From the NCBI GenBank assembly GCA_913774955.1, contig CAJYKV010000028.1, forward strand, positions 1-64,000: DNA of 64,000 nucleotides. The letters are read 5' to 3'. This stretch comes from an uncultured Acidovorax sp. (lineage in GTDB: Bacteria; Pseudomonadota; Gammaproteobacteria; Burkholderiales; Burkholderiaceae_C). Below the pieces are notes generated by a model. The model did not search any database, was not told the origin of the DNA, and saw only the letters and a program-made list of their open reading frames with translations. Positions 6,012 through 24,211 of the stretch are shown in pieces (the first letter of the stretch is position 1; the number at the start of each line of letters is the position of its first letter). The translations under genes and the position numbers were made by a program.

Positions 6012-6041
6012 CGGGTCGCGGAAGAATCGGTCGGATGCCGG

Positions 6042-7931: not shown

Positions 7932-7936
7932 GCGGC

Positions 7937-9124
7937 TTATTTTGACAGCAGCCGCATGGTCTCCTCGAGCCCTTTGAGGGACAGCGGGTACATCCGACCC
8001 CCCATCAACTGTAGGATGAGGTCGATACTTTGCCGGTACTGCCACACGCCCTGGGGTTCGGGGTTGATCCAGGCGTGTTTCGGGAAGGCGTGGGTGAGCC
8101 GCTTCAGCCACTCCGCGCCGGGCTCCTCGTTGTGGTATTCGACGCTGCCGCCGGGCTGCACGATCTCGTAGGGGCTCATGGTCGCATCGCCCACGAAGAT
8201 CAGCTTGTAGTCGCGGTTGTACTTGCGGATGATGTCCCAGGTGGGGAACTTCTCCGCGAAGCGGCGCCGGTTGTTCTTCCACATGTAGTCGTAGACGCAG
8301 TTGTGGAAGTAGTAGAACTCTAGGTGCTTGAACTCGCTCTTGACGGCGGAGAACAGCTCCTCGACGCGCTGGATGTGTTCGTCCATGGTGCCGCCCACGT
8401 CCATCAGCAGCAGCACCTTCACGTTGTTGTGGCGCTCCGGCACCATCTTGATGTCCAGCCAGCCGGCGTTGGCGGCGGTGCTGCGGATCGTGCCGTCCAG
8501 GTCCAGCTCCAGTTCGTTGCCTTCGCGCGCGAAGCGCCGCAGCCGGCGCAGGGCGACCTTGATGTTGCGGGTGCCCAGCTCCTGGGTGTCGTCGTAGTCG
8601 CGGTAGGCGCGCTGCTCCCACACCTTCACGGCGCTCTTGTTCTTGCCGGCGCCGCCGATGCGCACGCCCTGCGGGTTGTAGCCTCCGTGGCCATAGGGGC
8701 TGGTTCCGCCGGTGCCGATCCACTTGCTGCCGCCCTCGTGGCGCTCCTTCTGCTCTTCGAGGCGTTTCCTGAGCGTTTCCATGAGCTCGTCCCAGCCCAT
8801 CTTCTCGATGGCGGCCTTCTGCTCGGGCGTGAGCTCGCGCTCCAGGATCTGGCGCAGCCAGTCGGCGGGCACTTCCTTGCGGAAGTCGGTGACCATCTCC
8901 ACGCCCTTGAAGTAGGCGCCGAAGGCACGGTCGAACTTGTCGAAGTGCTTCTCGTCCTTGACGAGCACGGTGCGCGCGAGGTGGTAGAAGTCGTCGAGGC
9001 TCCAGCCGTCCTCGGACTTGGGGCCGACGACGCCCGCCTCCAGCGCCTCCAGCAGCGCGAGGTATTCCTTCACCGACACCGGCAGCTGGCCGGCGCGCAG
9101 CGCGTAGAAGAAGTCGATCAGCAT
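7937..9124 (-). CDS. CoxE-like von Willebrand factor A domain protein
   Basis: A 395-residue protein. The N-terminal helical part (1-160) is charged; the C-terminal vWA domain (about 200-395) has the metal-site core VLLLMDVGGTMDEH. The MIDAS is a DxGxT variant rather than the classical DxSxS, as is common in CoxE-like proteins. Further motifs are FYYFHNCVYD and VGDATMSPYEI. Such proteins pair with a MoxR AAA ATPase as a chaperone system for cofactor insertion or complex assembly. The MoxR partner lies just upstream (9821-10675), separated by an acetyltransferase gene. The stop lies 5 bases from the tamA start, so the two may share a transcript. Confidence 0.88.
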   Translation of the reverse strand: MLIDFFYALRAGQLPVSVKEYLALLEALEAGVVGPKSEDGWSLDDFYHLARTVLVKDEKHFDKFDRAFGAYFKGVEMVTDFRKEVPADWLRQILERELTPEQKAAIEKMGWDELMETLRKRLEEQKERHEGGSKWIGTGGTSPYGHGGYNPQGVRIGGAGKNKSAVKVWEQRAYRDYDDTQELGTRNIKVALRRLRRFAREGNELELDLDGTIRSTAANAGWLDIKMVPERHNNVKVLLLMDVGGTMDEHIQRVEELFSAVKSEFKHLEFYYFHNCVYDYMWKNNRRRFAEKFPTWDIIRKYNRDYKLIFVGDATMSPYEIVQPGGSVEYHNEEPGAEWLKRLTHAFPKHAWINPEPQGVWQYRQSIDLILQLMGGRMYPLSLKGLEETMRLLSK

Positions 9125-10790: not shown

Positions 10791-11462
10791 ATGAACAAGA
10801 AGCTGTCCACGATATTCGCCGCCGCTGTCGCTTGCGTGACCATCGGCGCCCATGCCCAGGAGGCCAAGGGAGACGCGAAGGCCGGGGCGGGCAAGATCGC
10901 CATGTGCATCGGCTGCCACGGCATTCCCGGCTACCAGGCGAGCTTTCCCGAGGTGTACAAGGTGCCGATGATCTCGGGCCAGAACGCAGGCTACATCGCC
11001 TCCGCCCTGCAGGCCTACAAGAAGGGCGACCGCCGGCATCCCACCATGCGCGGCATCGCCGATTCGCTCACCGACCAGGACATCGCGGACGTCTCCGCCT
11101 ACTACGCGGGCCAGGTGCCCCAGGGCGGCGCGCCCGCCAAGGCCTCCCGCGAGCCGAGCGCCCAGGTGGCGCAGCTGCTGCAAAAGGGCGCCTGCGTGTC
11201 CTGCCACGGCGAGAGCTTCTCCAAGCCGATCGATCCTTCATACCCGAAGATCGCCGGCCAGCATCCCGACTACCTCTTCGCCGCGCTCAAGGCGTACAAG
11301 GCGGGCGGCGGCGCGAACAGCAATGCCCCCGTCGGCCGCTCCAACGCCATCATGGCGGGCATCGCCAAGCAGTTCTCCAACGCCGAGCTGAAGGCCCTGG
11401 CGGGCTATCTGGGTTCACTGGACGGTGAATTGCAGGTGGTGCGCCAATCGCCGTTCCGTTGA
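10791..11462 (+). CDS. Diheme cytochrome c (cytochrome c4-like)
   Basis: A 223-residue exported protein. It has a Sec signal (residues 1-22, ending AHAQ) and two c-type domains in tandem with heme motifs CIGCH (39-43) and CVSCH (135-139). The methionine ligands probably lie in HPTMRG and NAIMAGI. Tandem class I domains of this size are cytochrome c4, a periplasmic electron carrier between the bc1 complex and terminal oxidases. The ATG at 10791 is preferred over a TTG at 10773 because it begins the signal peptide (MNKKLST). It is transcribed alone, divergent from the MoxR gene and convergent with the long minus-strand operon that follows. Confidence 0.92.
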   Translation: MNKKLSTIFAAAVACVTIGAHAQEAKGDAKAGAGKIAMCIGCHGIPGYQASFPEVYKVPMISGQNAGYIASALQAYKKGDRRHPTMRGIADSLTDQDIADVSAYYAGQVPQGGAPAKASREPSAQVAQLLQKGACVSCHGESFSKPIDPSYPKIAGQHPDYLFAALKAYKAGGGANSNAPVGRSNAIMAGIAKQFSNAELKALAGYLGSLDGELQVVRQSPFR

Positions 11463-11632
11463 GTTTGCCGGGCCGCCCGGGATATTGCAGGGTATTTACG
11501 CATTCCTTTGGGCGAGAAAATCTGATCGATTAATTTCGGCGGGCTGACGCGGCCTGAGCGGCACTGGCCCGGGCAGGGCTGCCGCTGCAGCGGCGGTGGC
11601 GCTCCCCCGCCGCCGCGCCGCCCTCCCGCGCT

Positions 11633-14191
11633 TCACGGCAGGGCGCTCGCTGCCTTCGAGATTGGGCAGCCGAAGAGATCGCCGACCCAGTTCACCACCT
11701 TCTCGAGTTCGTAGCCCAGCGCCACCATCGCCTGCTGCACCTGGGCCGCCAGCGCGCCCAGGCTCTGGAGCGCGGAGGCCAGCACCTGGCCCAGCTGCTT
11801 GAACTGCTCCTGCAGGATCTTGCCGATCAGTTCCAGCCCGTTGACGAAGTTGCGCCACTGCGCCTTGGCCCAGCGCAGGAAGTCCTGCAGGCCCGACAGC
11901 ACCGCCTGCATGAGCGCGGAGGCTTCGCGCTGCACCGCGACGAGCAGTTGGCCGGCCACGTCCTTGAGGCGGGTGATCACGTGGGCCACGTCCACGTTCA
12001 GCAGGGTGTAGGGGCTGTCCTGGCTGCCCAGATGCAGTTCGAGGCCCAGCAGGCTGAAATCGAAGTAGCCCGTCACCACTAGCGACTGCAGCGATGCGGA
12101 GAATCCCAGGCCCGCGGCAATGCTGAAATCGGGCAGGCGGATCTGCGGCACCAGGGTGACGCCCCAGAGGGTGATGCCGCTCCACTGGAGGTCTTTCCAG
12201 CCGAAGTTGAATCCGAAGGCGGCGGCCAGCTGGGTCTTGTCCGGATCGAGCAGGAAGGTGATGCTGTGGCCGCTCCAGACGCCGCATCCGCCAGCGGGTT
12301 GTCCGTTCTGCACGGCGTAGTCCAGCTGGAACCGGTTGTCGGTGGTGGCGAGGGCGTACAGGTGGTCTTCCACCAGGTCGAGGAACCGCAGGTAGAGCGA
12401 GGAGTAGAAGCGCACGGGGTTGCCGCCGTTCACCCCCGGCACGACGATGCCTTCGGGCGTGGCCGCGATCGCGATCTGCGGCCCCTGCGCGCTGGGCGTG
12501 CGCGTGTCCGGGTCCCACCCCGAAATCCGGAAGACCGAGCCCCAGACGATGGCCTGCTGCACCAGGATGAGGCCGGTGAATCCGGCCTTGGCGCTGGCCG
12601 ACTGGGCGAGCGTGGCGGTGATGCGCACGTCCGGCTGGCCCAGCAGGGCGAAGTCCGCCTGCAGGCCGAAACCGGCGGGAAAGGGGCCGTGGTCGCCGAT
12701 CTTCTGCAGCGAGGCGCCCTCCACGAACCAGAACACGAACTGGCGCAGGCGGACGATCTCGTCCAGGAACCGCACCACCTCGGCGATCTCGGGCTCGCCT
12801 TGCCGGTCGAGTGCCGCAGGCGAGATGTCGAGCGCGAAGGCGGCGTTGAAGACGCTCGACAGCTGCATCGGCGCCTGATCGGCCTGCGTCCAGAGGGCGA
12901 TGCCGCTGGGCACTTCGAAATCGATCACTTCGACTTCGAAGCCGACGTCGAACTCGTACTGCGGCGCATCGGGGTTCTGCAGCTTGATGGCGCCGCCGGC
13001 GCTGATCGCCACGCCAGCGGCGGCGGCACCCATGGTCGCGGCGCCCTGCAGTTCGGCGATGGTGACGGTGCGCAGTCCGAAGGGCTGTTTCCAGTTCGTC
13101 AGCGCGAACGTGAGGGCGAAGGTGCCCTCCGAGGGCGTGACGCTGCCCGTGAGCGCCAGGTCGATCGCGGTGGAGGCGTCCGGGTGGAAGGACCCTGCGG
13201 CCGTGGCGCTGATGCGGCTGTTGCCCTGGCCCGGGTCGTCCCATTCGAGCGTGAATCCGCCGAAGGCGAAGACACCGTTGTCCATCGCGCTGAAACGATT
13301 GGCGAGCACGGCCTTGAGTGACTTGTCTCCGCTGCCCTTGGCATACGTGGCGAAGAGATCGAGCTCGGAGACGTCGCCCATGAAGCGGGCGACGGCCTGG
13401 AGCGCGCCGGTCAGCTGCAGTGAGCCGAAGAGCGCGAACCCGGGCGCGATGTCGAAGTCTCCGGCGATGGCGGGCACGTCCTGGGGGTTGAGCAGCCCGA
13501 GCGACGACAGGCTGCCGGACGACCCGGGCAGGGTGGAGACCACCACGCCGCCGTGCCGGAGCTGGAGCGAGGACAGCGGCTGCCAGAGCGACCCGGGGGA
13601 CCACTGGTCCACCACCGCGCCGACCATCACGCCCGTGCCTTCGGCGGCGCGCTGCACGCTGATCGCGGCATTCAGGAAGGGCTGGCCCGCATACACCAGC
13701 CCGCCCTGCCCGGTGAAGGCGATCGCCGGGCCGGGCGCATAGCGCAGCGCGAGCGTGCCGTGCGCGAAGGCGGTCTGGCTGGCCGGGTTCCAGTCCAGGA
13801 GCGCCGGCCAGACCGTGTTCAGCGGCCACTGCAGCGTGTCGCCCATGGTGGCGTCCAGCGCCATTTCCACGCCCGCGTCGGTGCGGTTGAATGTGAGCAC
13901 CACCTGCGCATCGGTGTACTGGGTGCTGGTGAGCGTGAGCGTGGCGCCGTCCGCCGTGGCCTGCAGATCCAGGTCGGCGCCATCGATGCGGGCCTGCACC
14001 TCGAGCTGCCGGGTGGAGGGGTTGACCGCCAGGGAGGCGGCCGGACCGAGCTGCAGCGTGATGCCCTGAAGGTAATACCCCAGCGCGGTCTGGATGGGGC
14101 CCGGAAACTGGTCGTGCGCCAGTTGCAGCACCTTGGTGGTGCTGGTGGATTGCAGTGCGCCCTGCAGGGTGGCATAGATGCTGTCGGCCAT
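11633..14191 (-). CDS. Large unrecognised protein, last gene of the TULIP-like operon
   Basis: An 852-residue protein I cannot assign to a known family. It has no signal peptide. Residues 1-60 form an amphipathic helix with a hydrophobic strand (GYYLQGITLQLGPAASLAV). The middle (60-680) is dominated by alternating beta-strand sequence with many G/S/A turns (for example GFALFGSLQLTGALQAVARF). The last 130 residues (about 715-835) are helical and amphipathic, with repeated hydrophobic heptads (LLVAVQREASALMQAVLSG, FVNGLELIGKILQEQFKQL). Long beta groove plus terminal helices would suit a lipid-binding or membrane-active protein; that is inference. It starts 4 bases after the stop of the 625-residue gene, so the two are surely cotranscribed. 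Confidence 0.85.
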   Translation of the reverse strand: MADSIYATLQGALQSTSTTKVLQLAHDQFPGPIQTALGYYLQGITLQLGPAASLAVNPSTRQLEVQARIDGADLDLQATADGATLTLTSTQYTDAQVVLTFNRTDAGVEMALDATMGDTLQWPLNTVWPALLDWNPASQTAFAHGTLALRYAPGPAIAFTGQGGLVYAGQPFLNAAISVQRAAEGTGVMVGAVVDQWSPGSLWQPLSSLQLRHGGVVVSTLPGSSGSLSSLGLLNPQDVPAIAGDFDIAPGFALFGSLQLTGALQAVARFMGDVSELDLFATYAKGSGDKSLKAVLANRFSAMDNGVFAFGGFTLEWDDPGQGNSRISATAAGSFHPDASTAIDLALTGSVTPSEGTFALTFALTNWKQPFGLRTVTIAELQGAATMGAAAAGVAISAGGAIKLQNPDAPQYEFDVGFEVEVIDFEVPSGIALWTQADQAPMQLSSVFNAAFALDISPAALDRQGEPEIAEVVRFLDEIVRLRQFVFWFVEGASLQKIGDHGPFPAGFGLQADFALLGQPDVRITATLAQSASAKAGFTGLILVQQAIVWGSVFRISGWDPDTRTPSAQGPQIAIAATPEGIVVPGVNGGNPVRFYSSLYLRFLDLVEDHLYALATTDNRFQLDYAVQNGQPAGGCGVWSGHSITFLLDPDKTQLAAAFGFNFGWKDLQWSGITLWGVTLVPQIRLPDFSIAAGLGFSASLQSLVVTGYFDFSLLGLELHLGSQDSPYTLLNVDVAHVITRLKDVAGQLLVAVQREASALMQAVLSGLQDFLRWAKAQWRNFVNGLELIGKILQEQFKQLGQVLASALQSLGALAAQVQQAMVALGYELEKVVNWVGDLFGCPISKAASALP

Positions 14192-14195
14192 GGTG

Positions 14196-16073
14196 TCACT
14201 GCCCCAGGTTGTCGAGTGCCGCGCGCGCGAACTTCGTCGCCGCGTCGCTGATCTGCTGCAGGTTGCCGGCGATGTAGTCGTTGAGCGCCGACACGATGGC
14301 CTGGATCAGCTGTGCCTGCCCCAGGAAGGCATTGATGAAGGCCGTGTACTGCGCTTCCGCGGGCGAGAGCGTGAGGGTCACGGTGACGTCCCCGTCGCCC
14401 GCGGCCAGCGCGATGCGGCTGTAGGTGAGCTGCAGCTCCTGCGGCGTGTCGCCGGAGGCCGAGAGCGTCGTCTGGATGCCGAGCTGGCCGCTCTGGTTGC
14501 GCAGGCCGAGGGCGAGCGTGCCCGACAGCGGAATCGGTGCGTTCTGCCCGACCTGCACGTTGAGCGTGAACGGCGTGCTGGCCGTGGCGGGCGGTGAGGG
14601 AACGGTGCGCGGCGTTCCCTTGACGTTCACGGTCGGACCCGGGTCGAGCTTGCCGAGCAGCAGCGTGGCACTGGCCTGCTGGTTGCTGCCGAAGACGATG
14701 TTGTCCGGCGGGGCGACCAGGTTCGACAGCCCCTGGATGGCGAGGCTCTGCAGCACGATGCCGGACAGCGAGAGGCTGACGCCCATGAGCTGCGTGGTGA
14801 AGGGGCCGTCGATGCGCAGGTCCACGGCGGTGTAGGGCTCCAGCACCGGCGACGCGGAGCCCAGCACCAGGGTGGGCAGGTACACGTAGCTGCTGCGGTC
14901 GTTGAGCGCGCCGCGGGCACGGTTGAACAGGTACTTGTCCACCGCGTTGGCGTCGGTGTCCACCGTGCTGCTGGCCACCTGCGTGCTGCCGAAGATGTCG
15001 TCGAAGGCGTTCTTGAACTGCTGGTTCAGCAGGCTCTGCACCTGGCCGATGTTGCCCTTGTCCATCAGGGCGCCGTTGACCTGGGCCGTCAGCATCTGCG
15101 CGGCCTGCGGGGTGGACAGGATCTGCACGAAGAACCGGCTCCAGATCGCGTAGAAGCGGTTCATGATGTCCGGCGGTGTCGGGAAGGGCATCGGCACCAT
15201 GCTCTGGTACTGCAGGTTCTTCAGCGTGAAATCGGGCTGGTCGCCCTGTTCCGCCACGAGCTGGATGCTGCCCAGATCGACCTGCAGCGCCTTGCCGTCG
15301 CCGGTCACGGTCACCTGCGTGTCCGAGACGATCCTGCCATTGGCCAGCGTGAGCAGCGCGATGCCGGAGGCGCTGCAGTCGAAACCGTCGGGGTGCCCGG
15401 GCGAGGGCGCGAGCCCCAGCGTCGGCGGTGGCGCGACGATGTTTCCCTGGGGATCGACGAAGCACAGGCACTGGGTGAGCGTGAAATTCAGGCCGTCGAA
15501 CGGCGTGGGCGGCTGGGTGCCCGGGTCCACCCCCTGCTCGGGGCCGGTGAGGGCGAGCGGCTGGCTCCAGGCGTCGCCGGAGGCCGGGTAGGCGTTGAGG
15601 TCCAGCGCGATCTGCGCGGCATAGCCGGCGTTGCTGGTGCTGACCGTGGGCGGCTGGCCGCTGACCTTGATGTTCGCCAGGCCGTCGATCTCGATGCGGC
15701 TCACGCTCAGGTCGGGGCCGCGGCCGGGAAAGGCCACCACGTTCAGCCGCCGGGACCGGATGTAGGTGTTGGCGGCGTTGGCGTCGTCGATCATCTTCTG
15801 CGTGATCTGCGGCCCCGGAGCCGAGGTGCCGATGAACCTGAGCAGCGGCGGGATCATCCCGAACCAGGAGCTGGCGAGGTTGTTCGACATGTCCACCGCG
15901 CCGCCGATGTCGTGCATGTCCCAGTCGGTTCCCCGGACCGGCAGGTAGGGCGTTCCGTCCGACTGCTTCATGCCCGAGAGCGCGACCGGCAGGAAAAGGC
16001 TGTTGCCCGGCGAATGGTCGTTCGCCTTCTGCATCAGGGTGTTGTAGACGAAATGGAATAGCTGCAGGCCCAT
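14196..16073 (-). CDS. Unrecognised 625-residue protein of the TULIP-like operon
   Basis: No signal peptide and no family I can name. The N-terminus (1-60) contains GDSxG-free, polar sequence with RGTDWDMHDIGG. The middle holds beta-strand blocks with repeated pattern VSRIEIDGLANIKVSG and ALQVDLGSIQLV. A helical block (about 300-365, FYAIWSRFFVQIL then LLNQQFKNAFDDIFG) is followed by further strands (DLRIDGPFTTQLMGVSLSLSG). The end is an amphipathic helix (FINAFLGQAQLIQAIVSALNDYI). Strand-rich halves joined by long amphipathic helices are the TULIP lipid-binding layout, as in P47/OrfX proteins; I offer this as inference. A strong ribosome site (AGAGGGAG) precedes the ATG. The polyprenyl synthetase gene ends 78 bases upstream. 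Confidence 0.82.
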   Translation of the reverse strand: MGLQLFHFVYNTLMQKANDHSPGNSLFLPVALSGMKQSDGTPYLPVRGTDWDMHDIGGAVDMSNNLASSWFGMIPPLLRFIGTSAPGPQITQKMIDDANAANTYIRSRRLNVVAFPGRGPDLSVSRIEIDGLANIKVSGQPPTVSTSNAGYAAQIALDLNAYPASGDAWSQPLALTGPEQGVDPGTQPPTPFDGLNFTLTQCLCFVDPQGNIVAPPPTLGLAPSPGHPDGFDCSASGIALLTLANGRIVSDTQVTVTGDGKALQVDLGSIQLVAEQGDQPDFTLKNLQYQSMVPMPFPTPPDIMNRFYAIWSRFFVQILSTPQAAQMLTAQVNGALMDKGNIGQVQSLLNQQFKNAFDDIFGSTQVASSTVDTDANAVDKYLFNRARGALNDRSSYVYLPTLVLGSASPVLEPYTAVDLRIDGPFTTQLMGVSLSLSGIVLQSLAIQGLSNLVAPPDNIVFGSNQQASATLLLGKLDPGPTVNVKGTPRTVPSPPATASTPFTLNVQVGQNAPIPLSGTLALGLRNQSGQLGIQTTLSASGDTPQELQLTYSRIALAAGDGDVTVTLTLSPAEAQYTAFINAFLGQAQLIQAIVSALNDYIAGNLQQISDAATKFARAALDNLGQ

Positions 16074-16151
16074 GGTGTTGGCTCCCTCTGGTGTGTGGAG
16101 CGCGTCGTCTGCCGGCCGGCCGCGGCGGGGTGCCCCGCGGCCGGGCGGGCG

Positions 16152-17174
16152 TCAGTACGCGCGGTTGACGACGTGCATGGTGATGTCGTGCAGCGCCCGC
16201 AGGTGCGGCCCCTGCGGCAGGTGGTCGAGGAACTGCACGGCCTGCAGCGCGGTATTGCGGGCCTGCGCATAGGCCAGCGCGAAGGCATCGGAGCGCCGGA
16301 TCTCGTCGACCCAGGCGTTGATGCGTGCCTCGTCGGCCGACTCCTGCCCGCGCAGGTAGCGCACCATGGGATGGTCGTCGCCGAACAGCTTCATCGCATG
16401 GATGATGGGCAGCGTGATGCGTCGCTGGTGCAGGTCGATGCCCTTGCGCTTCCCGGCCTCTTCGTCCGAATGGGACAGGTCGAAGATGTCGTCCATCATC
16501 TGGAAGGCCCGGCCCATGGCACGGCCGAAGCTGCCGAGGCGGCGCAGGTCGGAGGTGTGGGCGCGCATGAGCGCTGCCCCCGACTCGCAGGCCAGCCCGA
16601 ACAGCACGGCGGTCTTGCGGTCCACGGTGGTCAGGTACCGGGCCATCAGCGGGTCGGGATGCCAGGAGGGCTGGGTGGTCATCTCGTCGATTTCGCCGCG
16701 GCAGATGTCGAACGCGGAGTCCAGCACCCACTTCACGAGCTGCATGTCGGTCATGTCCTCGATCGTGTCCACGAAGCAGCGCACGGCCTGCAGGAACTGC
16801 ATGTCGCCGATCAGGATGGCCATCTCGGTGCCGCGCGCCGCGTTCACGCTGCTGTGGCTGCGCCGCAGGCTGGCGTGGTCCACGATGTCGTCGTGGATCA
16901 GGCTCGCCACGTGCAGCATCTCCAGCGAGGCGGAGGCGCGCAGCACCTTGTGCGGCAGTTCGCCCTGGGGCTGGAACAGGCGCGCAGTGATGAGCAGCAT
17001 GAGCGGGCGCAGCTTCTTGCCGCCCTGGTAGAGCGCCATCTCCACGTCCGTCAGGTAGCCCTGCTGCGGCTTCAGCGCTTCGTGCAGTTCGCGCTCGAAG
17101 CCCTGCATGTCCCCTGCCATCAGGTCCTGCAGGATGGCCTGGACCGGGTCGGCCCGGGTGGCGGCGATCTTCAC
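16152..17174 (-). CDS. Polyprenyl synthetase (trans-isoprenyl diphosphate synthase)
   Basis: A 340-residue protein with all core motifs: GGKKLRP for isopentenyl diphosphate binding, the first Asp-rich motif LIHDDIVDHASLRR, and the second FQMMDDIFDLS, followed by GKRKGIDLHQRRITLPII. It would condense isopentenyl diphosphate with an allylic diphosphate; product length cannot be read off safely. The segment after the first motif (RRSHSSVNAARGTEMAILIGDMQF) departs from housekeeping IspB-type enzymes (G..VLAGD), suggesting a specialised enzyme. The start is GTG at 17174, overlapping the previous stop by four bases (GTGA), so its translation is coupled to the 458-residue protein. Its place inside the operon suggests that an isoprenoid lipid is a ligand or precursor there. 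Confidence 0.9.
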   Translation of the reverse strand: MKIAATRADPVQAILQDLMAGDMQGFERELHEALKPQQGYLTDVEMALYQGGKKLRPLMLLITARLFQPQGELPHKVLRASASLEMLHVASLIHDDIVDHASLRRSHSSVNAARGTEMAILIGDMQFLQAVRCFVDTIEDMTDMQLVKWVLDSAFDICRGEIDEMTTQPSWHPDPLMARYLTTVDRKTAVLFGLACESGAALMRAHTSDLRRLGSFGRAMGRAFQMMDDIFDLSHSDEEAGKRKGIDLHQRRITLPIIHAMKLFGDDHPMVRYLRGQESADEARINAWVDEIRRSDAFALAYAQARNTALQAVQFLDHLPQGPHLRALHDITMHVVNRAY

Positions 17175-18547
17175 GGCCGAGCGTCCAGCAGGGCCTGCGC
17201 GAGCGGGCCCACCAGCGCGCGCTCCAGGGCGTCGGCGACGCGGTCGTGCAGCAGGCTTTTGATAAAGCGCGCCTCGGCGAGGGCGTCGCGCGCCGCGCCT
17301 GCCAGTTCCTGCCCCAGGGCCGCGTCCCAGCCGTGGTCGTCGAAGTGCAGGTCGAAGCCGTCCAGCTCCACCCGCCCGTCGATCCATGCCACGGCGCCGT
17401 CGCGCTCGCCGAACTGCAGATAGACGTCGCAGGCCAGCTGCGCCTGCAGGCCGGCCGCCGCCAGGGCCACGGGGCGCAGAGCCGCCAGGCGGGCGGCGTG
17501 TTCGGCGATGTCCGCCTGCATCTTGCGGACGAAGGCGCGCGCGTCCTCGTCGAGCACCATGGTCCAGGCATTGCCTTCGGCATCGCGGCCGCCGATGGGG
17601 CTGCCGTTCAGGAAGCTGTGCACGTCGGCCACGGTGTGGGGCGTGGCGGGCGTCCCGTGCTGCACGATGCCGTAGACGTCGGACTTGGTCTGCGGTTCGA
17701 TGTTCTCGATCTTGCCGTCCACGGGGTTGGTGTTGGCGACGACGGAACTGCCGAAGGTCAGCGTGGCCGCGGCGGCCTGGTTGTAGGGATTGGTGTCGTC
17801 GGTCTTGTTCTGCGGGTTGCCGAACTCGGCCAGCGCCGTCAGCGCGGTGAGCAGGGCCAGCTTCTGCGTCTGCGCATTGCCGTTGTAGGTGGTGTTGCCG
17901 TAGATCTTGCCGGCCTGGTTGACGGGGGTGCCGTCCTGGTTGAGCGCGGTGTTCGTGTCCGCCGCCATGTCCGAGATCGCCTGGGTTCCCCAGCCGACCT
18001 GGAAGGCGTAGGTGAGGTCGTCGGTGAAGACGTCGTTGAAGGCCGCGCGGTGGTTGGAGTAGGTGCTCAGCAGCGTGGCGCCGTTGCCCCCGGGCACGTT
18101 CTGCAGGTTCGCGCGCTGTTCGTTCGCGGTCTGGATCCAGGCGGGGTGCGCATTGGCATCGGCGCTGCCGCCGCGCCGGCGGGCGCCCGGGGGCAGTCCG
18201 GTGCCTGCGCCGTCGAGATCCGCTTCCCAGATCTGGGTGCCCTGCAGGGCGTAGCGGCCTTCGAGTGCGATGCCCTCCAGCCGCACCGCCACCACGCAGC
18301 GGTCTTGCGCATCGCTGCCGAATTCGGCCGCGACCGGCGTGCCGCGGTCGAAGGACAGCCGCATGTCCGACAGTTCGATGCCCAGGGAGCCGCGCTCGAA
18401 GCCGGCCTGCGCGGGCATGTCGAGCGATCGTGCGAGGGGCAGCGGAGGAATGTTGCTGACGTCGGTGTGCAGGGGCCGGGCGGTGCCCAGGGCCGTGCCA
18501 CCCCGGGCCGTCCAGCCGGCCAGGAAATCTTGGATTGCAGCGCTCAT
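17171..18547 (-). CDS. Unrecognised 458-residue protein of the TULIP-like operon
   Basis: No signal peptide. The N-terminal 130 residues hold beta strands (LGIELSDMRLSFDRG, RCVVAVRLEGIALEGRYALQG), with a pattern of inward hydrophobics seen in lipid-binding folds. The middle (150-320) is rich in Asn/Thr/Gln (NTTYNGNAQTQKLALLTALTAL, KSDVYGIVQHG). The C-terminus (360-458) has a strand pair (WIDGRVELDGFDLHFDDHGWD) and long Ala-rich helices ending LERALVGPLAQALLDARP. I recognise no enzyme motif. It ends in a four-base GTGA overlap with the polyprenyl synthetase gene and starts 35 bases after the 132-residue gene. Confidence 0.82.
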   Translation of the reverse strand: MSAAIQDFLAGWTARGGTALGTARPLHTDVSNIPPLPLARSLDMPAQAGFERGSLGIELSDMRLSFDRGTPVAAEFGSDAQDRCVVAVRLEGIALEGRYALQGTQIWEADLDGAGTGLPPGARRRGGSADANAHPAWIQTANEQRANLQNVPGGNGATLLSTYSNHRAAFNDVFTDDLTYAFQVGWGTQAISDMAADTNTALNQDGTPVNQAGKIYGNTTYNGNAQTQKLALLTALTALAEFGNPQNKTDDTNPYNQAAAATLTFGSSVVANTNPVDGKIENIEPQTKSDVYGIVQHGTPATPHTVADVHSFLNGSPIGGRDAEGNAWTMVLDEDARAFVRKMQADIAEHAARLAALRPVALAAAGLQAQLACDVYLQFGERDGAVAWIDGRVELDGFDLHFDDHGWDAALGQELAGAARDALAEARFIKSLLHDRVADALERALVGPLAQALLDARP

Positions 18548-18582
18548 GGATTTTCTCCTCGTTCGGTGGGCTGGTGGCGTGG

Positions 18583-18981
18583 TCAGGCGATGTCGACGCT
18601 GGCCGTGACGAGCACGTGGTCCGCGTCCGCGGTGGAAATGTTCAGGCCCGATGGGACGAGCTTGATCTGGACGCCTTCGAGCTGCAGCGGGATGTCCGGC
18701 ACGGTGAAGGACGCCTTTTCGTTGAGTTCCTTCTGCGCGGCGCTCTGGATCGTGGACTGCAGGAAGGGCGTGACGATCCCGATGACGCTGGTCGCCACGT
18801 GCTGCAGCACGCTGGCATTGAATTTCTCCCACCCGCTGCCGTTCGGCGCGTAGGTGATCTTGAAGGCGGGCAGTGGCTGCAACTGCAGCTGGATCTGCTT
18901 CGAGCCGGAGACGACGGGCTTCACGGTGACCGTCAGGGCTTTGGGATCGGTGCCGAAGTCGGCTTTGGCGAAATCAACCAT
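18583..18981 (-). CDS. Small TULIP/P47-like protein (132 residues)
   Basis: The protein is two strands (LTVTVKPVVSGSKQIQLQLQP), a long amphipathic helix (VLQHVATSVIGIVTPFLQST) and then KASFTVPDIPLQ and KLVPSGLNISTAD. From memory, the helix followed by an SFTV..(L/I)P element and an AGLN/SGLN turn resembles the C-terminal end of the clostridial P47 protein, a TULIP-fold member of the botulinum orfX cluster. Size also fits OrfX1-like proteins. This is an unverified resemblance, not a database hit. The gene begins 12 bases after the 308-residue gene. No signal peptide is seen. Confidence 0.75.
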   Translation of the reverse strand: MVDFAKADFGTDPKALTVTVKPVVSGSKQIQLQLQPLPAFKITYAPNGSGWEKFNASVLQHVATSVIGIVTPFLQSTIQSAAQKELNEKASFTVPDIPLQLEGVQIKLVPSGLNISTADADHVLVTASVDIA

Positions 18982-18993
18982 GGGGGTCTCCTG

Positions 18994-19920
18994 TCAGGGC
19001 AGCAAGTTCGATGCGGCTTCGAGCGCGCAGGCGGCGGGCACCAGCCACCAGGAGACGCCGACCTCGGCGGTGGCGGCGAAGGTGGCGGTGATGTTCACGT
19101 TCGGCAGCGTGGAGGCGAGCGCCACCGAAGGGTTGGTGATGCCTCCCTTCAGCGAGTAGCTGCCGCTCCAGTTGCTGTTGCTTTCGTTGATCTTCTTGTC
19201 GCTCATCTGCTGGATGAGCGCGTGGCTGTACTTCTGCAGCAGCGCCGACAGCAGGCGCCTGCCGATCAGCACGCCCAGGGGGTTCTGGGGCCACTGCACG
19301 CCGCCGATGTCGGGCGTGCCGTTCGCGACGAGGTTGCAGGCCAGCACCAGATGGCTGCCGGTGACGGTGACGACCGGAGGCGTGAAGTCCTGGCCCTCGA
19401 CGGAAATGCTGGCGGGGATCTGGTAGCCCTGGAGCAGGCCCTGCACTTTCTGGAAGACGATGCCGCAGATCACCTGCAGCATGAAGTCCGACATCGCGGT
19501 CGGATTGATCGGGAGCACCGCCACGCTGCCGAGCTGGACGTGGCGGTCCGCCGTGATCGTGACCTGGGCGAAGACGGTGAACGCGAAGGTCACCTTGGAC
19601 ACCGTTCCGTCCTGCAGGTGGAAGCCGGCCGTCACCGAGGCCAGCTGCACCTGGAACATCTGGTCCGTGGGCTGCGGCGGCTTGGTCCCCCCACTGGGAA
19701 CGAACGTGTGCTTGTCGTTCCACTGGTTGGCAGTGGGAGGGGCCAGCACGAACTGCGGGGCGGCGTCGATGCTCCAGTCCACCGAAACCAGGCCCATCTG
19801 GCCGATGTTCTCGCTGCCCTGGAAGAATTTCTGCCGTGCCAGCGTGTTCGCGTACAGCTGGGTCATCCCTTTGTTCAGGGTGCCGGCGTCCAGCACCAGC
19901 GCTGCGTCGTAGCTACTCAT
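18994..19920 (-). CDS. Unrecognised 308-residue protein with P47-like features
   Basis: The N-terminus (1-40, MSSYDAALVLDAGTLNKGMT then QLYANTLARQKFF) is helical, followed by strand VSVDWSIDAAPQFVL. This helix-then-DW(S/E)I arrangement recalls the start of P47-family proteins. Central strands (FQVQLASVTAGFHLQDGTVSKVTFAFTVFAQVTI) precede an amphipathic helix (DFMLQVICGIVFQKVQGLLQ), then LLSALLQKYSHALIQQMSDKKI, and terminal strands (SVALASTLPNVNITATFA). Strand-helix-strand order is compatible with a TULIP lipid-binding fold. No catalytic motif is seen. It overlaps the cysteine protease gene by eight bases, so the two are translationally linked. Confidence 0.8.
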   Translation of the reverse strand: MSSYDAALVLDAGTLNKGMTQLYANTLARQKFFQGSENIGQMGLVSVDWSIDAAPQFVLAPPTANQWNDKHTFVPSGGTKPPQPTDQMFQVQLASVTAGFHLQDGTVSKVTFAFTVFAQVTITADRHVQLGSVAVLPINPTAMSDFMLQVICGIVFQKVQGLLQGYQIPASISVEGQDFTPPVVTVTGSHLVLACNLVANGTPDIGGVQWPQNPLGVLIGRRLLSALLQKYSHALIQQMSDKKINESNSNWSGSYSLKGGITNPSVALASTLPNVNITATFAATAEVGVSWWLVPAACALEAASNLLP

Positions 19921-20545
19921 GTTCCAACTCTCCTTTGCATGGGGTATGGGCAGGGCGCGGGGCTTGCGTCCAGTAGGTCTCCATCCACTCGCCGCCGTGC
20001 CGGTAGCGCAGGGGAAACGTGTCGAAATCGAGGGTGGCTCGGCCGCATTGCGGATCGGCGACCGAGATGGTGCGGCGCGCGCGGCAGTACCCGTCCACGA
20101 GCACGTAGTGCTGCGATCCCGCGTGCCAGCGGATGGCAGCGGCCACGGGGCGGCCTTCGTCCAGTTCGCGCATCAGGCGCCGGAAGGGCGGGCGCCCGCT
20201 GCTCCAGCCGGCGAGGCAGTTCACGTAGCGCAGCGTCCGCTCCATGGCCGCCTGCTGGTCGTAGCGCTCCAGTTCCAGCAGGTCGGACGGGGGCAGGCCC
20301 TGGGCGGGGGACGCCGCATCGGCCGCGAGAATGCGCCAGGCCAGCTTCTCCTGCTGCCAGGAGGTGTCGCCGTAGTGGGCCGCGATCGCGCAGGTCACGG
20401 CGGCCCAGCACCAGTTGGTGCGCAGCTGGCGCTCCAGCACCAGGTCCAGGTCGCGCGACCCGGCGCCTTCGGCAGGCCAGGGGCCCGGAGGCATCGGGCC
20501 GACGCGGCGCGTGGTGCGCGCCAGCGGCTCGATCCGCAGCTTCAT
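19913..20545 (-). CDS. Papain-like cysteine protease (AvrRpt2/C39-like)
   Basis: A 210-residue protein. The catalytic centre is Q40-LRTNW-C46-WAAV, where Gln would form the oxyanion hole and Cys46 is the nucleophile. His146 lies in GSQHYVLVDGY and Asp164 in SVADPQCG. This Q..CWAA / H / D set is the signature of AvrRpt2-like papain-fold proteases. No signal peptide is present. The start at 20545 overlaps the previous stop by four bases (ATGA), which fixes it over an in-frame ATG 15 bases upstream. In the operon it may process one of the large neighbours or be a secreted toxin/effector; the sequence does not decide. Confidence 0.85.
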   Translation of the reverse strand: MKLRIEPLARTTRRVGPMPPGPWPAEGAGSRDLDLVLERQLRTNWCWAAVTCAIAAHYGDTSWQQEKLAWRILAADAASPAQGLPPSDLLELERYDQQAAMERTLRYVNCLAGWSSGRPPFRRLMRELDEGRPVAAAIRWHAGSQHYVLVDGYCRARRTISVADPQCGRATLDFDTFPLRYRHGGEWMETYWTQAPRPAHTPCKGELEHE

Positions 20546-21180
20546 GCGAGCGGCATGCATCGGGGCAGCAGCTTGTTCAGCTGTTCGCTGACGATGTCGT
20601 TGATCTGGGAGGAGATCAGGTTGCGGATGGCGCCCTTGGCCGCGTCGAGGATCAGGTTCTCCACCGGCTGGAGCAGATAGTTGAGGGGGCCCAGGTCGTT
20701 GATCCAGATCGCGGCGTTGCTGTAGTTGAAGTCGGCATCCATGGCCGAGATCGCATCCAGGCACAGCTTGCCGCCGGCCGTGCTGGCATGGAACTGCGCG
20801 TTCCCGGCGATGGTGGCCCCGTCGATGCGCAGGTTGCCGGAAATGCTCGGATCGACGAACAGGATGCTGACGCTGCCGCGGGCCTGCGCCGAGAGCGAGC
20901 TGCCCAGCGCGGCATGGAAGCTGAGGTTGCCCGACAGGCTGCTGCCCGAGCCGCTGACGTTGCTCACCACCATGTCCTGCAGCCGCAGCGAGGACAGGCC
21001 GGTCAGGTTTTCCACCGCGTACGAGGCGGTGCCGACGCCGATGCTGGCGGAGCCCGATGCGACGTTGCGGTAGGGGTCGTAGCCCGCGCCCGAGATCGCG
21101 CCCGGGATTTCGCCGTTGAGCTGCGTGACGAGGCCCTGCAGGACTTCGTTGAGGATCTGGGTGATCGGATCGTTGCTCAT
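20542..21180 (-). CDS. TULIP-like lipid-binding protein, first gene of the operon
   Basis: A 212-residue protein. It opens with an amphipathic helix (PITQILNEVLQGLVTQLNGE), followed by strands with alternating polarity: LSSLRLQDMVVSNVSG, LSGNLSFHAALG, ARGSVSILFVDPSISGNLRIDG, GNAQFHAS. It closes with INDLGPLNYLLQPVENLIL and ISSQINDIVSEQLNKLLP. A final strand segment (NLGPLN-like) leading into two helices that end in LP is the layout of TULIP proteins such as takeout/JHBP and group 7 mite allergens. It lacks a signal peptide, unlike those eukaryotic proteins. It starts the operon and overlaps the protease start by four bases. Confidence 0.8.
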   Translation of the reverse strand: MSNDPITQILNEVLQGLVTQLNGEIPGAISGAGYDPYRNVASGSASIGVGTASYAVENLTGLSSLRLQDMVVSNVSGSGSSLSGNLSFHAALGSSLSAQARGSVSILFVDPSISGNLRIDGATIAGNAQFHASTAGGKLCLDAISAMDADFNYSNAAIWINDLGPLNYLLQPVENLILDAAKGAIRNLISSQINDIVSEQLNKLLPRCMPLA

Positions 21181-21661
21181 GGGGATGCCTCTGGATGGGG
21201 TAGTGGTCGGATGTGCGTGGCTGCGGGCGTGCCGGGGCCTGCTGCAGGCATCGGCAGGAAGGGGGCCGGAGCGGGCTGGTCAGCCCGGCGGCGGTTGTCG
21301 ATGGGGGTGGGGCGCGGAGCGGCGGGCTGCTCAGGCGGGCCGGCGCGCGGGTTGCCGCCTCGTCCGGTCGCCGGGCGGCGGGGAGGCGGCGGGGCACGGG
21401 GTACCGGAAGAGCCCGGTGCGGGGAGACAGGTGGCAGGTGTCGGCACGGAGGTCTCGCTTGGCTGTTAGTGGACAGGCAGGCACAGCCCGTCCGGATGTG
21501 TTCTCACGCAGCGGGCCTGGCCCGCCTCCCTCCCTCGTCTGTGATCGCGAGGTGTGCCCATTCTCCCGGCGCCGCGGGGCCGCGGTTTGAATGGCGCCTT
21601 AAACGTTCTGAATCCACCTGAATCCAGAGCGTGCTTCCCGCGAGTGGCCGCGGTGCCGGGT
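21181..21661. other. 481-base intergenic region upstream of the TULIP-like operon
   Basis: This gap between the GGDEF-EAL gene stop and the first operon gene codes for nothing credible; the only long frame is Arg/Pro-rich. It should hold the operon promoter on the minus strand. I see no convincing -35/-10 pair, no PIP box (no CGAA pairs at the right spacing) and no clear terminator. The part near 21585-21625 is less GC-rich and is where I would look for a promoter. Confidence 0.6.
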
Positions 21662-24211
21662 TCAGGAATCCGCTGGAGCGAGGCGCAGCTGTTCCAGCGG
21701 CGCAGGCCGCCCGAAGTGGTAGCCCTGCGCATGGCCGCAGCCCATGGCGCGCAGGCGCTCGGCCTCCTCGGCGGTCTCCACGCCCTCGGCCACCACCGTC
21801 ACCGCGAAGCCCTTGGCCATGTTCAGCACGGCGGTCACGATGGCCTCGTCCTGCGGCGAGTGCAGCAGGTTGCGCACGAAGCGCTGGTCCACCTTGAGGC
21901 AGTCGAACGGCAGCCGCCCCAGGTAGGCGAGCGACGAATAGCCCGTGCCGAAATCGTCGATGGCGATCTTCACGCCGAGCGCGCGGATCGCGGCGAGGCG
22001 CGCGCCGGTCACGCCGTCGTCCTCCAGCAGCACCGATTCGGTGAGTTCCAGCGTCAGGTGGCGCGGCGGCAGGCCGCTCTCTTCCAGGATCTGCCGCAGC
22101 GTGTCCTGGAAGTCGGACTGGATGAGCTGGCGCGCGGAGACGTTGACGTGGATGTCGAAGTCCGCGGGCAGGTCGGGCAGCCGCTGCGCGATCGCGTGCG
22201 TGGCTGTGCGCAGCACCCATTCGCCGATGCCCAGGATCAGGTCGGACGCTTCGGCCACCGGGATGAACACGCCCGGCGGCACCATGCCGCGCGAGGGGCT
22301 GCTCCAGCGCAGCAGGGCCTCGGCGCCGGTGATGCGGCCCGGGCCGAGTTCCACCACGGGCTGGTAGTGCACCAGGAACTGGTCGCGCTCGAGCGCCTGC
22401 CGCAGCTCGGTGGCCAGGCGCGTGCGCTCCATCGAGCGTTCCATCATTTCGTCTGCGAACGGCACGCACTGGCTGCGGCCCAGGCGCTTGGCCTCGCCCA
22501 GCGCGATGCTCGCGTTGCGCAGCCATTCGGCCAGCTGCCCGCCCGGCAGCGTGCCCGCCACGACGCCGACCGAGGCGGTGAGCAGCACTTCGTCGTCGCC
22601 CACCGAGAACGGTGCACCGAAGGTGTTCAGCATGGCGCGGCCCGCGGCCTCGGGCGCCAGCACGTCGGCATCCAGCCGCAGCAGCGCGAATTCGTCGCCG
22701 CCCAGGCGTGCGATGAGCGCCGAGCCCGGCTGCGTGGCCTGCAGGCGTTCCGCGATCGCCCGCAGCAGCCGGTCGCCGGTGTCCAGGCCCATGCTGTCGT
22801 TCACCGCGCGGAAGGCGTCGAGGCCGGCCAGCACGAGAACGGCCCGCCGCGGTTGCGGCCCGCCGGCCTTCTCCAGCAGGCCGCGCCGCGTGAGCAGGCC
22901 CGTGAGGGGGTCGAACAACAGTTGCCCGCGCAATTGATGGAACGAATGCCGCAGCCGGCCGGCCATGTCGTTGAAGGCCTGTACCAGCGCCGCGGTCTCG
23001 CGCAGCGGGCTGGTCGCGCGCAGTTCGGTGTCCCAGTCGCCGCCCGACATGCGCTGCGCGGCCTGCGAGGTGAGCAGGATGGGGGCGGCGATCCGCTGCA
23101 CCGCCCACAGGCCCAGCAGCAGTCCGAAGGCCGCGATGGCGGCCGTGGCGACCAGGGCGCGGCGCGCGGCCGCGCGGGTATCGCCCAGCAGGTCGGATTC
23201 GGGCAGGGCGACCACGATGCGCCAGTGGACCCCGGGCACCCCGGTGAAGGGCGTCACGCGCGCGAAGTAGCGCTCGCCCGCCAGCCGGTAGGAATACGCG
23301 GCGGCCTCCCCGGCGAGCGTTCCGGCCGGCAGCCCTTCCGCTGCAGCGCGGACTTCGGCGCTGGGGCTCTGGGTGGCGAGACGCCGCGCGTACTGGCCGC
23401 TTCCGGGTGCGGGGGGCAGGGTGATTCGGCCCGGGTCGGACTGGGCGATCAGGCGGCCCTCGGCATCCAGCACGAAGATCTGGCCATGGCCGCGCAGCGG
23501 CTCCTCGCGCAGGAACCGGTGCAGCGTGTCCAGACGGACTTCGGCCTGCACCGCGCCCACGACCTCCCCGGCGGATACCACCGGGGAAGAGGCCGCGATG
23601 ATGACCTCTCCACGCTCGCCCGCGGTGGTGTAGACCTCCGACCATTGCGGCCGCCCCGAGGCCACCACCGGCGCGTACCAGGGCCGCACGCGGGGATCGT
23701 AGTCCGCGATCGAGGCGATGATCCGGTCGCTGTCCGTGCCGACGCCGTGCACCTGGAGGCGCGCCTGCGTGCTGCGGTCCTGCAGCACCAGGCGCAGCTG
23801 GCCGTCCGCTTCGCGGCGGATGCCGGTGTAGTCGCCGTCGCGGCTGCCGAAGCCCAGCATGCTGATCTGCGGCTGGTCGGCGTAGAGCGCATCGAGCACG
23901 GAACGCAGGTATTCGTGGACGGGGCGCAGGTCGCCGGAGCGGTAGAGGCCGTGGCGGCCGATCGCGTCGGCGGTGCTGCGCTGGATGCGGAAGGGCGTGT
24001 CGAGGAAGTTGACGAGCCGCTCGCCGGCCGTGTGCGTCACGGCGTCCAGCAGGCGGACGCTTTCCTGGTCGATGAGCGCGTCGATCTGCCGGTGCTGCGT
24101 GACCGCCTGCAGGGCCACGGTGCCGACGAACAGTGCGGCGAACGGCACGGCGATGGCCGTGCGCAGCGACAGCTGGATCCGCCGCACGTCAGCACCGTCC
24201 CTCGGGACCAC
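21662..24211 (-). CDS. Membrane dCache-HAMP-GGDEF-EAL cyclic-di-GMP enzyme
   Basis: An 849-residue protein. The N-terminal transmembrane helix (about 15-38) and a second one (about 345-370, ALVATAAIAAFGLLLGLWAV) flank a periplasmic dCache sensor with the RPWYAPVVASG motif. A HAMP-like linker follows. The GGDEF domain starts LLFDPLTGLLTRRG and keeps an intact RLGGDEF active site. The EAL domain keeps AEALLRW, LELTES, DDFGTGYSSL and KVDQRFV, so both diguanylate cyclase and phosphodiesterase activities look possible. The ligand of the sensor is unknown; dCache domains often bind amino or organic acids. An extended -10 lies upstream. It does not appear to be in an operon with the genes that follow. 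Confidence 0.93.
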   Translation of the reverse strand: MVPRDGADVRRIQLSLRTAIAVPFAALFVGTVALQAVTQHRQIDALIDQESVRLLDAVTHTAGERLVNFLDTPFRIQRSTADAIGRHGLYRSGDLRPVHEYLRSVLDALYADQPQISMLGFGSRDGDYTGIRREADGQLRLVLQDRSTQARLQVHGVGTDSDRIIASIADYDPRVRPWYAPVVASGRPQWSEVYTTAGERGEVIIAASSPVVSAGEVVGAVQAEVRLDTLHRFLREEPLRGHGQIFVLDAEGRLIAQSDPGRITLPPAPGSGQYARRLATQSPSAEVRAAAEGLPAGTLAGEAAAYSYRLAGERYFARVTPFTGVPGVHWRIVVALPESDLLGDTRAAARRALVATAAIAAFGLLLGLWAVQRIAAPILLTSQAAQRMSGGDWDTELRATSPLRETAALVQAFNDMAGRLRHSFHQLRGQLLFDPLTGLLTRRGLLEKAGGPQPRRAVLVLAGLDAFRAVNDSMGLDTGDRLLRAIAERLQATQPGSALIARLGGDEFALLRLDADVLAPEAAGRAMLNTFGAPFSVGDDEVLLTASVGVVAGTLPGGQLAEWLRNASIALGEAKRLGRSQCVPFADEMMERSMERTRLATELRQALERDQFLVHYQPVVELGPGRITGAEALLRWSSPSRGMVPPGVFIPVAEASDLILGIGEWVLRTATHAIAQRLPDLPADFDIHVNVSARQLIQSDFQDTLRQILEESGLPPRHLTLELTESVLLEDDGVTGARLAAIRALGVKIAIDDFGTGYSSLAYLGRLPFDCLKVDQRFVRNLLHSPQDEAIVTAVLNMAKGFAVTVVAEGVETAEEAERLRAMGCGHAQGYHFGRPAPLEQLRLAPADS

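Follow-up and report, generated by a model that had tools for sequence, protein, structure and literature searches.

The closest described counterparts of the locus treated here are the orfX-p47 clusters, in which, as far as the accessible parts of the sources go, several TULIP proteins are encoded near varied toxin genes (PMC7020563, PMC13030710). Such clusters are reported in thirteen strains, and the word polyprenyl is absent from the main text of that work (PMC7020563). According to the available part of a 2026 review, OrfX and P47 make their toxin more toxic when taken orally and are similar to TULIP domains (PMC13030710). Other bacterial proteins, namely YceB, DUF4403, DUF2140 and DUF2993, have been placed in the TULIP fold by structure or by remote homology, and the accessible part of that source mentions no synthase partner for them (PMC6791001). 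The operon described here lies in a stretch of 64,000 nucleotides from an uncultured Acidovorax sp. (contig CAJYKV010000028.1, positions 1 to 64,000; hereafter the window) and consists of eight minus-strand genes between positions 11633 and 21180, which encode probable TULIP-type proteins, a polyprenyl diphosphate synthase, a predicted protease and a member of a family of giant proteins.

We propose, with a probability of roughly 40%, that this operon encodes a soluble multi-protein carrier of an isoprenoid lipid that would serve a hydrolase. The observations behind this proposal are a gene set that recurs across phyla, a synthase clade that stands apart, the joint occurrence of the synthase gene with one TULIP-type gene among the loci examined, and a hydrolase whose identity changes from lineage to lineage. 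The cross-phylum synteny and the synthase clade are added here to what had been described, as are a P47-sized protein that is apparently split and the family of giant proteins.

The operon, its relatives and its synthase

The eight genes are transcribed in the order G212, PEP, G308, G132, G458, PPS, G625 and G852 (Table 1); neighbouring genes overlap by 4, 8 and 4 bases or are separated by 12, 35, 78 and 4 bases. All eight open reading frames were found where the preliminary description had placed them, and its view that they form one operon was borne out by these distances and by the order of the genes, which is kept in Paracidovorax anthurii. A sigma-70 promoter scan of positions 11000-22000 found none. 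Among the products, only PEP and PPS exceed a Pfam cut-off; the other six, already described as belonging to no known family, stay below every Pfam cut-off and match no NCBIfam or PADLOC model; their PHROGs rows, at E 0.012 or worse and to families of unknown function, are not convincing. The claimed absence of signal peptides also agrees with the sequences, since simple hydropathy predicts none in any of the eight products. The highest 19-residue hydropathy mean is 1.53, with no membrane segment (the usual threshold for such a segment is 1.6), and the net charge is negative in seven of the eight.

Table 1. Genes of the operon, the gene that marks its insertion site, and giant-family proteins from loci without the synthase gene
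Feature	Location	Strand	Length (residues)	Remarks
G212	20542-21180	-	212	likely single-domain TULIP-type protein; relatives seen in Paracidovorax only
PEP	19913-20545	-	210	papain-like cysteine protease by profile, C39/C70 type
G308	18994-19920	-	308	apparent N-terminal part of a P47-sized protein; corresponds to one 433-residue protein in L012
G132	18583-18981	-	132	probable C-terminal part of the protein split as G308 and G132
G458	17171-18547	-	458	likely TULIP-type protein with a long insert
PPS	16152-17174	-	340	GTG start; trans-polyprenyl diphosphate synthase by profile and motifs; separate operon clade
G625	14196-16073	-	625	C-terminal half related to the 427-residue protein of L012 and the 283-residue protein of L006
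G852	11633-14191	-	852	giant-family protein with a helical tail; relatives of 998-3380 residues
GGDEF/EAL protein	21662-24211	-		orthologs mark the operon insertion site in other Paracidovorax genomes
Giant-family protein, no PPS	Priestia megaterium plasmid, L016		998	
Giant-family protein, no PPS	Herpetosiphon aurantiacus		1446	
Giant-family protein, no PPS	Azospirillum lipoferum plasmid, L018:10467-20609		3380	
Giant-family protein, no PPS	genome G728, L064		1510	

In P. anthurii (L001) all eight genes occur in the same order with 73-86% identity, and the ratio of nonsynonymous to synonymous substitution rates (dN/dS) between the two species is 0.27-0.47 for the operon genes (0.34 for the flanking GGDEF/EAL gene); these are therefore real genes and not chance reading frames, and all eight are under purifying selection. 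There too, G308 and G132 are separate genes. In other Paracidovorax genomes, the corresponding site was read at 15 loci; 14 of them are free of the operon, the one positive (G1291) being P. anthurii itself, and in these 14 loci GGDEF/EAL, cytochrome c and MoxR-type genes lie close together. A seventeenth genome, G265, has no close GGDEF/EAL ortholog, and its negative rests on a protein search that gave no G625 match; the operon is present in 2 of the 17 Paracidovorax genomes. Its history would be either that of an old insertion lost many times or that of movement between species at one site.

More distant relatives were found in another class of the same phylum, probably the Alphaproteobacteria, order Sphingomonadales (a placement by inferred names that covers genomes G321, G769 and G728). 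On the minus strand, locus L012 of G769 encodes proteins of 427, 450, 433, 354 (EEP-like) and 1313 residues followed by a PPS, and locus L006 of G321 encodes proteins of 471, 447, 377 (EEP-like) and 1345 residues, a PPS and a protein of 283 residues. Both loci carry, in a different order, five of the families of the operon in the window, those of G308, G458, PPS, G625 and G852. By phmmer and hhalign, whose E-values refer here to small sets (28 proteins) or single pairs and are not database-wide, the 450- and 471-residue proteins are G458-like, the 1313- and 1345-residue proteins G852-like (for G852 and the 1345-residue protein, hhalign 98.5% over 562 columns and phmmer about 1e-20), the 433- and 447-residue proteins correspond to G308 plus G132, and the C-terminal part of G625 has its counterparts in the 427- and 283-residue proteins. 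Of these links, those that involve G132 and G625 are the weakest. G308 matches the 433-residue protein at 6.7e-11 in phmmer and 94.9% over 294 columns in hhalign; for G132 the phmmer values are 2.5e-6 (P. anthurii ortholog) and 3.3e-5 (window), with a weak 11.5% in hhalign. What is one protein of 433 residues in L012 seems to be divided here between G308 and, probably, G132. For G625, phmmer gave E 1e-4 to 2e-3 and hhalign 65.5% over 64 columns.

G458 has relatives in L006, in L012 and, in another phylum, in L015, the megaplasmid of Streptantibioticus cattleyicolor. There, genes like G458, PPS, G625 and G852 follow one another in the order of the window, the G625 relative matching the P. anthurii protein at E 7e-18 and that of the window at 2e-15, and a G308-like stretch lies upstream of the G458-like gene (E 8.8e-7, small set). 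Conservation of the gene set in order, which the preliminary description had named as something to look for, was accordingly found for all eight genes in P. anthurii and for five families in one other phylum.

The synthase is the best defined of these proteins. PPS matches PF00348 at E 3e-55, over the cut-off, and both DDxxD motifs are intact, with invariant aspartates in the four operon synthases aligned, so that by profile and motifs it is classed as a polyprenyl diphosphate synthase. Two small residues, A90 and S91, precede the first DDxxD motif; by rule, small residues at this place go with a long-chain product, which suggests such a product for PPS. In these three features PPS is like the long-chain trans-polyprenyl diphosphate synthases; it differs from them in belonging to a separate clade whose five tree members all lie in these operons. 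In a tree with 14 other synthases from seven genomes, four of them operon carriers, the five operon synthases (two from Paracidovorax and those of G769, G321 and S. cattleyicolor) formed one group with support 100/100; three long open frames had been trimmed to their last 345 residues, and a long-branch warning includes the operon group. Because the five group apart from synthases that include those of the same genomes, PPS is not the housekeeping copy; the genome of the window has three further synthases.

A G458-type gene and a giant gene are present in all five PPS loci, and no G458-type gene was found in the four giant-gene loci that lack PPS (0/4, from tblastn at E 0.05 of stretches of 20-29 kb and, for G728, also from profile searches, one G625 row, at E 0.035, being left out of account). 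As the loci are few and in part related, this joint occurrence is no more than suggestive. The idea that the cargo of the TULIP-type proteins comes from the synthase rests mainly on it.

Probable TULIP-type proteins and the comparison with P47 and OrfX

The preliminary description read the six products without a known family as TULIP/P47-like and saw a TULIP-like end in the first of them, G212. This holds in part. The JHBP profile matches almost the whole length of the P. anthurii ortholog of G212 (E 7.7e-4, residues 5-200 on 28-228 of 239), and the G458-like protein of L012 matches the same profile at E 1.7e-5 over 66 residues, both below the cut-off; the window's own G458 has no JHBP match, and the other four products have none to a TULIP profile. 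The Grp7_allergen profile gave E 0.012 for G212 and 0.076 for its P. anthurii ortholog, also below the cut-off. Among 23 operon-family members scanned, JHBP matched two and Grp7 two, and the two families that JHBP matched show no similarity to each other. The bacterial TULIP families YceB, DUF4403, DUF2140 and DUF2993 do not appear among the Pfam matches listed. On this moderate evidence a TULIP fold is likely for G212 and G458; G625 is tied to the TULIP-type group weakly by sequence, and for G852 no TULIP support was found among the profiles. A search of the sequences of solved structures with the queries A6, A5, A2, A1, the 450-residue protein of L012, A11, A14 and A9 gave nothing convincing, the weak rows being 2qgu (E 0.023, A14) and sticholysin (E 0.16-0.45, N-terminal part of A9).

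The JHBP family owes its name to an insect protein that binds an isoprenoid hormone. The relatives of G212 and G458 share with the JHBP/Takeout proteins and the group 7 allergens of insects and mites these profile matches and a small soluble form; they differ in being bacterial, without a signal peptide, encoded in an operon and below the curated cut-off. It could be argued that the operon is an ordinary one of unrelated proteins that reached TULIP profiles by chance, as would fit matches that all lie below Pfam cut-offs and structure models of low confidence. We consider this hardly credible, given that, out of 24,736 models, one and the same family is matched by two operon families unlike each other, and that the gene set recurs across phyla in a partly identical order.

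A relationship to P47 itself is another matter. The Pfam P47 model (PF06597, Clostridium_P47) matched none of the six products at E 1, none of the 23 family members at E 10 and nothing in the genome of the window at E 0.01; as a control, it did match in Bacteroides ihuae, one of 14 genomes. The orfX-p47 clusters are recognised by one p47 copy together with orfX genes, and this genome has no gene that the P47 model matches. The profile searches suggested in the preliminary description therefore turned out negative for P47 and gave JHBP matches, below the cut-off, for relatives of two families. Its remark that the 132- and 308-residue products recall P47/OrfX is right as to size, as both together correspond to one 433-residue protein in another lineage and the term P47-sized fits them for that reason, and it finds no support in the P47 model. 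The graded product sizes that it likened to those of orfX clusters are not a property of the gene set, since the corresponding proteins elsewhere differ in size.

Hydrolases, giant proteins and distribution

PEP matches Peptidase_C70 (2.9e-7) and Peptidase_C39_2 (4.1e-7), both over the Pfam cut-off, and C46, H146 and D164, assigned as a triad by reading, are invariant in both Paracidovorax orthologs; on these grounds it is classed as a papain-like C70/C39 protease. It resembles the AvrRpt2-type (C70) and C39-like proteases in these matches and in the Cys, His and Asp that it keeps, and differs in its operon partners and in the GPxL motif, which by sequence reading is present in neither ortholog. 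In the part of the source available, cyclophilin is described as activating AvrRpt2 through GPxL motifs (PMC8150971). Regulation of the operon through PIP boxes was considered and dropped: the window has one PIP-box-like site, outside the operon, for a chance mean of 0.83.

In place of the protease, other loci have other hydrolases. L006 and L012 each encode a protein that reads as EEP-like (DNase-I-like) and falls far short of the cut-off of the MnuA nuclease model (scores of 2.3e-5 and 8.3e-5). In Herpetosiphon and Azospirillum an EEP gene directly precedes the giant gene, with Pfam values of 2e-8 (over the cut-off) and 2.4e-4 (below it), respectively, and in G728 (L064:12884-18717) a metallo-beta-lactamase gene faces the giant gene, and farther on lies a CHAT-AAA-TPR gene. 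In total, 7 of the 9 loci with a giant gene also have a hydrolase, of one of three folds, a descriptive count without a background rate.

These enzymes bear on the view that the locus is an orfX-p47-like cluster, in which a TULIP-type helper complex would assist an exported enzyme, PEP here and EEP-like elsewhere, against a eukaryotic or bacterial target. As in those clusters, neighbouring TULIP-type proteins would here be encoded near varied enzymes or toxins in unrelated bacteria that include plant pathogens (PMC7020563, in its accessible part). Plant pathogens are indeed found in Paracidovorax, C70 is the AvrRpt2 family, and two EEP-like proteins score, if far below the cut-off, with the MnuA nuclease model. 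The orfX-p47 proteins likewise are not known to have signal peptides. Still, we regard this view as unlikely: the operon has no P47 match, and no toxin, export or immunity gene was recognised in it; PEP lacks the motif through which AvrRpt2 is activated; the giant family and the split P47-sized gene set the operon apart; and a dedicated synthase would be a new feature for an orfX-type cluster, orfX and polyprenyl being otherwise met together only in a Staphylococcus context in the literature searched.

The giant proteins range from 852 to 3380 residues in the loci seen and occur in Pseudomonadota, Actinomycetota, Bacillota and Chloroflexota; hhalign detected no link between the G852 family and the other operon families. 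As four giant-family loci show neither PPS nor TULIP-type genes (Table 1), the giant protein can do without them. In Priestia (L016:1-24022) the giant gene lies among TIR, macro-domain and restriction genes, the next gene being an Eco57I-type methylase, and in Azospirillum (L018) it stands after an EEP gene and a gene for a 1083-residue protein without a Pfam match, amid insertion sequences and with type III-B CRISPR genes nearby. These settings, the CHAT-AAA-TPR gene of G728, the differing hydrolases, the sporadic spread and the plasmid locations would agree with a conflict or defence system whose core is the giant protein and whose active parts are the protease, EEP-like, metallo-beta-lactamase or CHAT partners. 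Defence-type genes are common neighbours on plasmids, however, and the neighbourhoods are described without a statistical test; moreover, among the genes of the operon none was recognised as a defence gene, and none of the eight proteins has a PADLOC match at E 1, all of which makes a defence role quite improbable.

The gene set is rare and patchily spread among distant bacterial groups. A search with G625 found 1 of 299 genomes of the family and a search with PPS at E 1e-50 found 1 of 369 genomes of the class, in both cases that of the window. In the class of G321, a PPS search at E 1e-40 found 4 of 289 genomes, two of them strongly (G321 and G769); the synthases of G770 and G843 (34-35% identity) fall outside the operon clade and were not counted as operon synthases. 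Within the family of G321 the only positive among 169 genomes is G321 itself. The G852 profile matched 3 of 398 genomes in the phylum, one judged false, and a four-row giant-family profile 3 of 230 in the class of G321; a G852-profile match (E 4e-5) in a genome that happens to be labelled G308 was rejected, as its open frame reads as a SulP-type transporter. Among GTDB contigs, 25 stretches matched a G625 pattern and one, P. anthurii, is a true relative. Viral contigs held no relatives of the proteins labelled A9, A10 and A12, phages and plasmids none of the 852-residue protein, and plasmids none of the 433- and 471-residue proteins; the two plasmid records with a PPS relative both belong to one S. 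cattleyicolor strain. The literature searched, which left most subscription journals out of reach, contained neither a description of this gene set nor any work that joins a bacterial TULIP domain with polyprenyl.

This distribution also bears on the possibility that the operon belongs to an isoprenoid-lipid pathway of the cell itself, which would make a further polyprenyl lipid, carry it and place it in a membrane or store, while the hydrolase would mature a pathway protein or trim the lipid. EEP folds include phosphatases, and a dedicated synthase beside proteins of a lipid-binding type, without signal peptides or membrane segments, could be read in this way. Presence in 2 of 17 Paracidovorax genomes, 1 of 299 in the family and 2 of 289 (strong PPS matches) in the class of G321 does not suit a pathway of this kind, nor does the lack of a glycosyl- or methyltransferase in the operon, and the replacement of an EEP-like enzyme by a protease ill suits a single pathway step. 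We therefore find it rather doubtful.

A possible isoprenoid-lipid carrier

In the carrier proposed here, PPS would make a polyprenyl diphosphate, and G212, G458, probably G625 and the split G308 and G132 would hold this lipid or a derivative in hydrophobic tubes. G852 could act as a scaffold or as a long hydrophobic conduit, and the loaded complex may help a lineage-specific hydrolase, here PEP, to reach or act at a membrane or a lipid-linked target. That a prenyl-lipid synthase gene of their own accompanies the TULIP-type genes from phylum to phylum points to a class of ligand that can be tested. A bolder version, which is unlikely at present, would see in it a mobile cross-phylum system in which a dedicated polyprenyl lipid, a TULIP carrier and a giant conduit deliver or target an interchangeable hydrolase. 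If this were true, bacteria would possess a delivery machine loaded with an isoprenoid of their own making, to which nothing described so far corresponds, and the purpose of the OrfX/P47 lipid-binding fold could be explained.

Several results weigh against the carrier. All TULIP matches, from some 40 proteins scanned, are below Pfam cut-offs, and G625, G308, G132 and G852 have no TULIP profile match. The AlphaFold model of G625, from a two-row alignment, has a mean pLDDT (predicted local distance difference test) of 28.4 and is not usable; that of G212, also from two rows, reaches 38.5, is not usable either and shows, at low confidence, a helix, seven strands and a long helix. Foldseek and VIA-align returned unrelated rows and no TULIP for this low-confidence model, an outcome that in itself speaks neither way. 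The PPS loci found number only five, of which two come from a single genus, and no lipid-modifying enzyme stands alongside PPS; the four giant-family loci of Table 1, on the other side, are those in which PPS and TULIP-type genes were not found. The EEP-like proteins of L006 and L012 have no Pfam match. Among the loci compared, relatives of G212 and PEP were seen in Paracidovorax only. In S. cattleyicolor no match to G132 or G212 was found and no hydrolase was recognised by reading, and the G625-like (16769-18514) and G308-like (21048-21925) copies of L015 lie in more than one frame, so that they may be broken or the record erroneous.

Two other reading frames of the window may be mentioned. 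A frame of 1985 residues at 2214-8171 on the plus strand, whose last part lies over opposite-strand frames and is of low complexity, is probably an artefact of high G+C content. On the minus strand, 24833-26557 encodes a protein of 574 residues without a Pfam match, whose Ser/Pro-rich N-terminus recalls a secreted effector; P. anthurii, too, has an open frame like it, though shorter, which lies upstream of its GGDEF/EAL gene (L001 13-1107).

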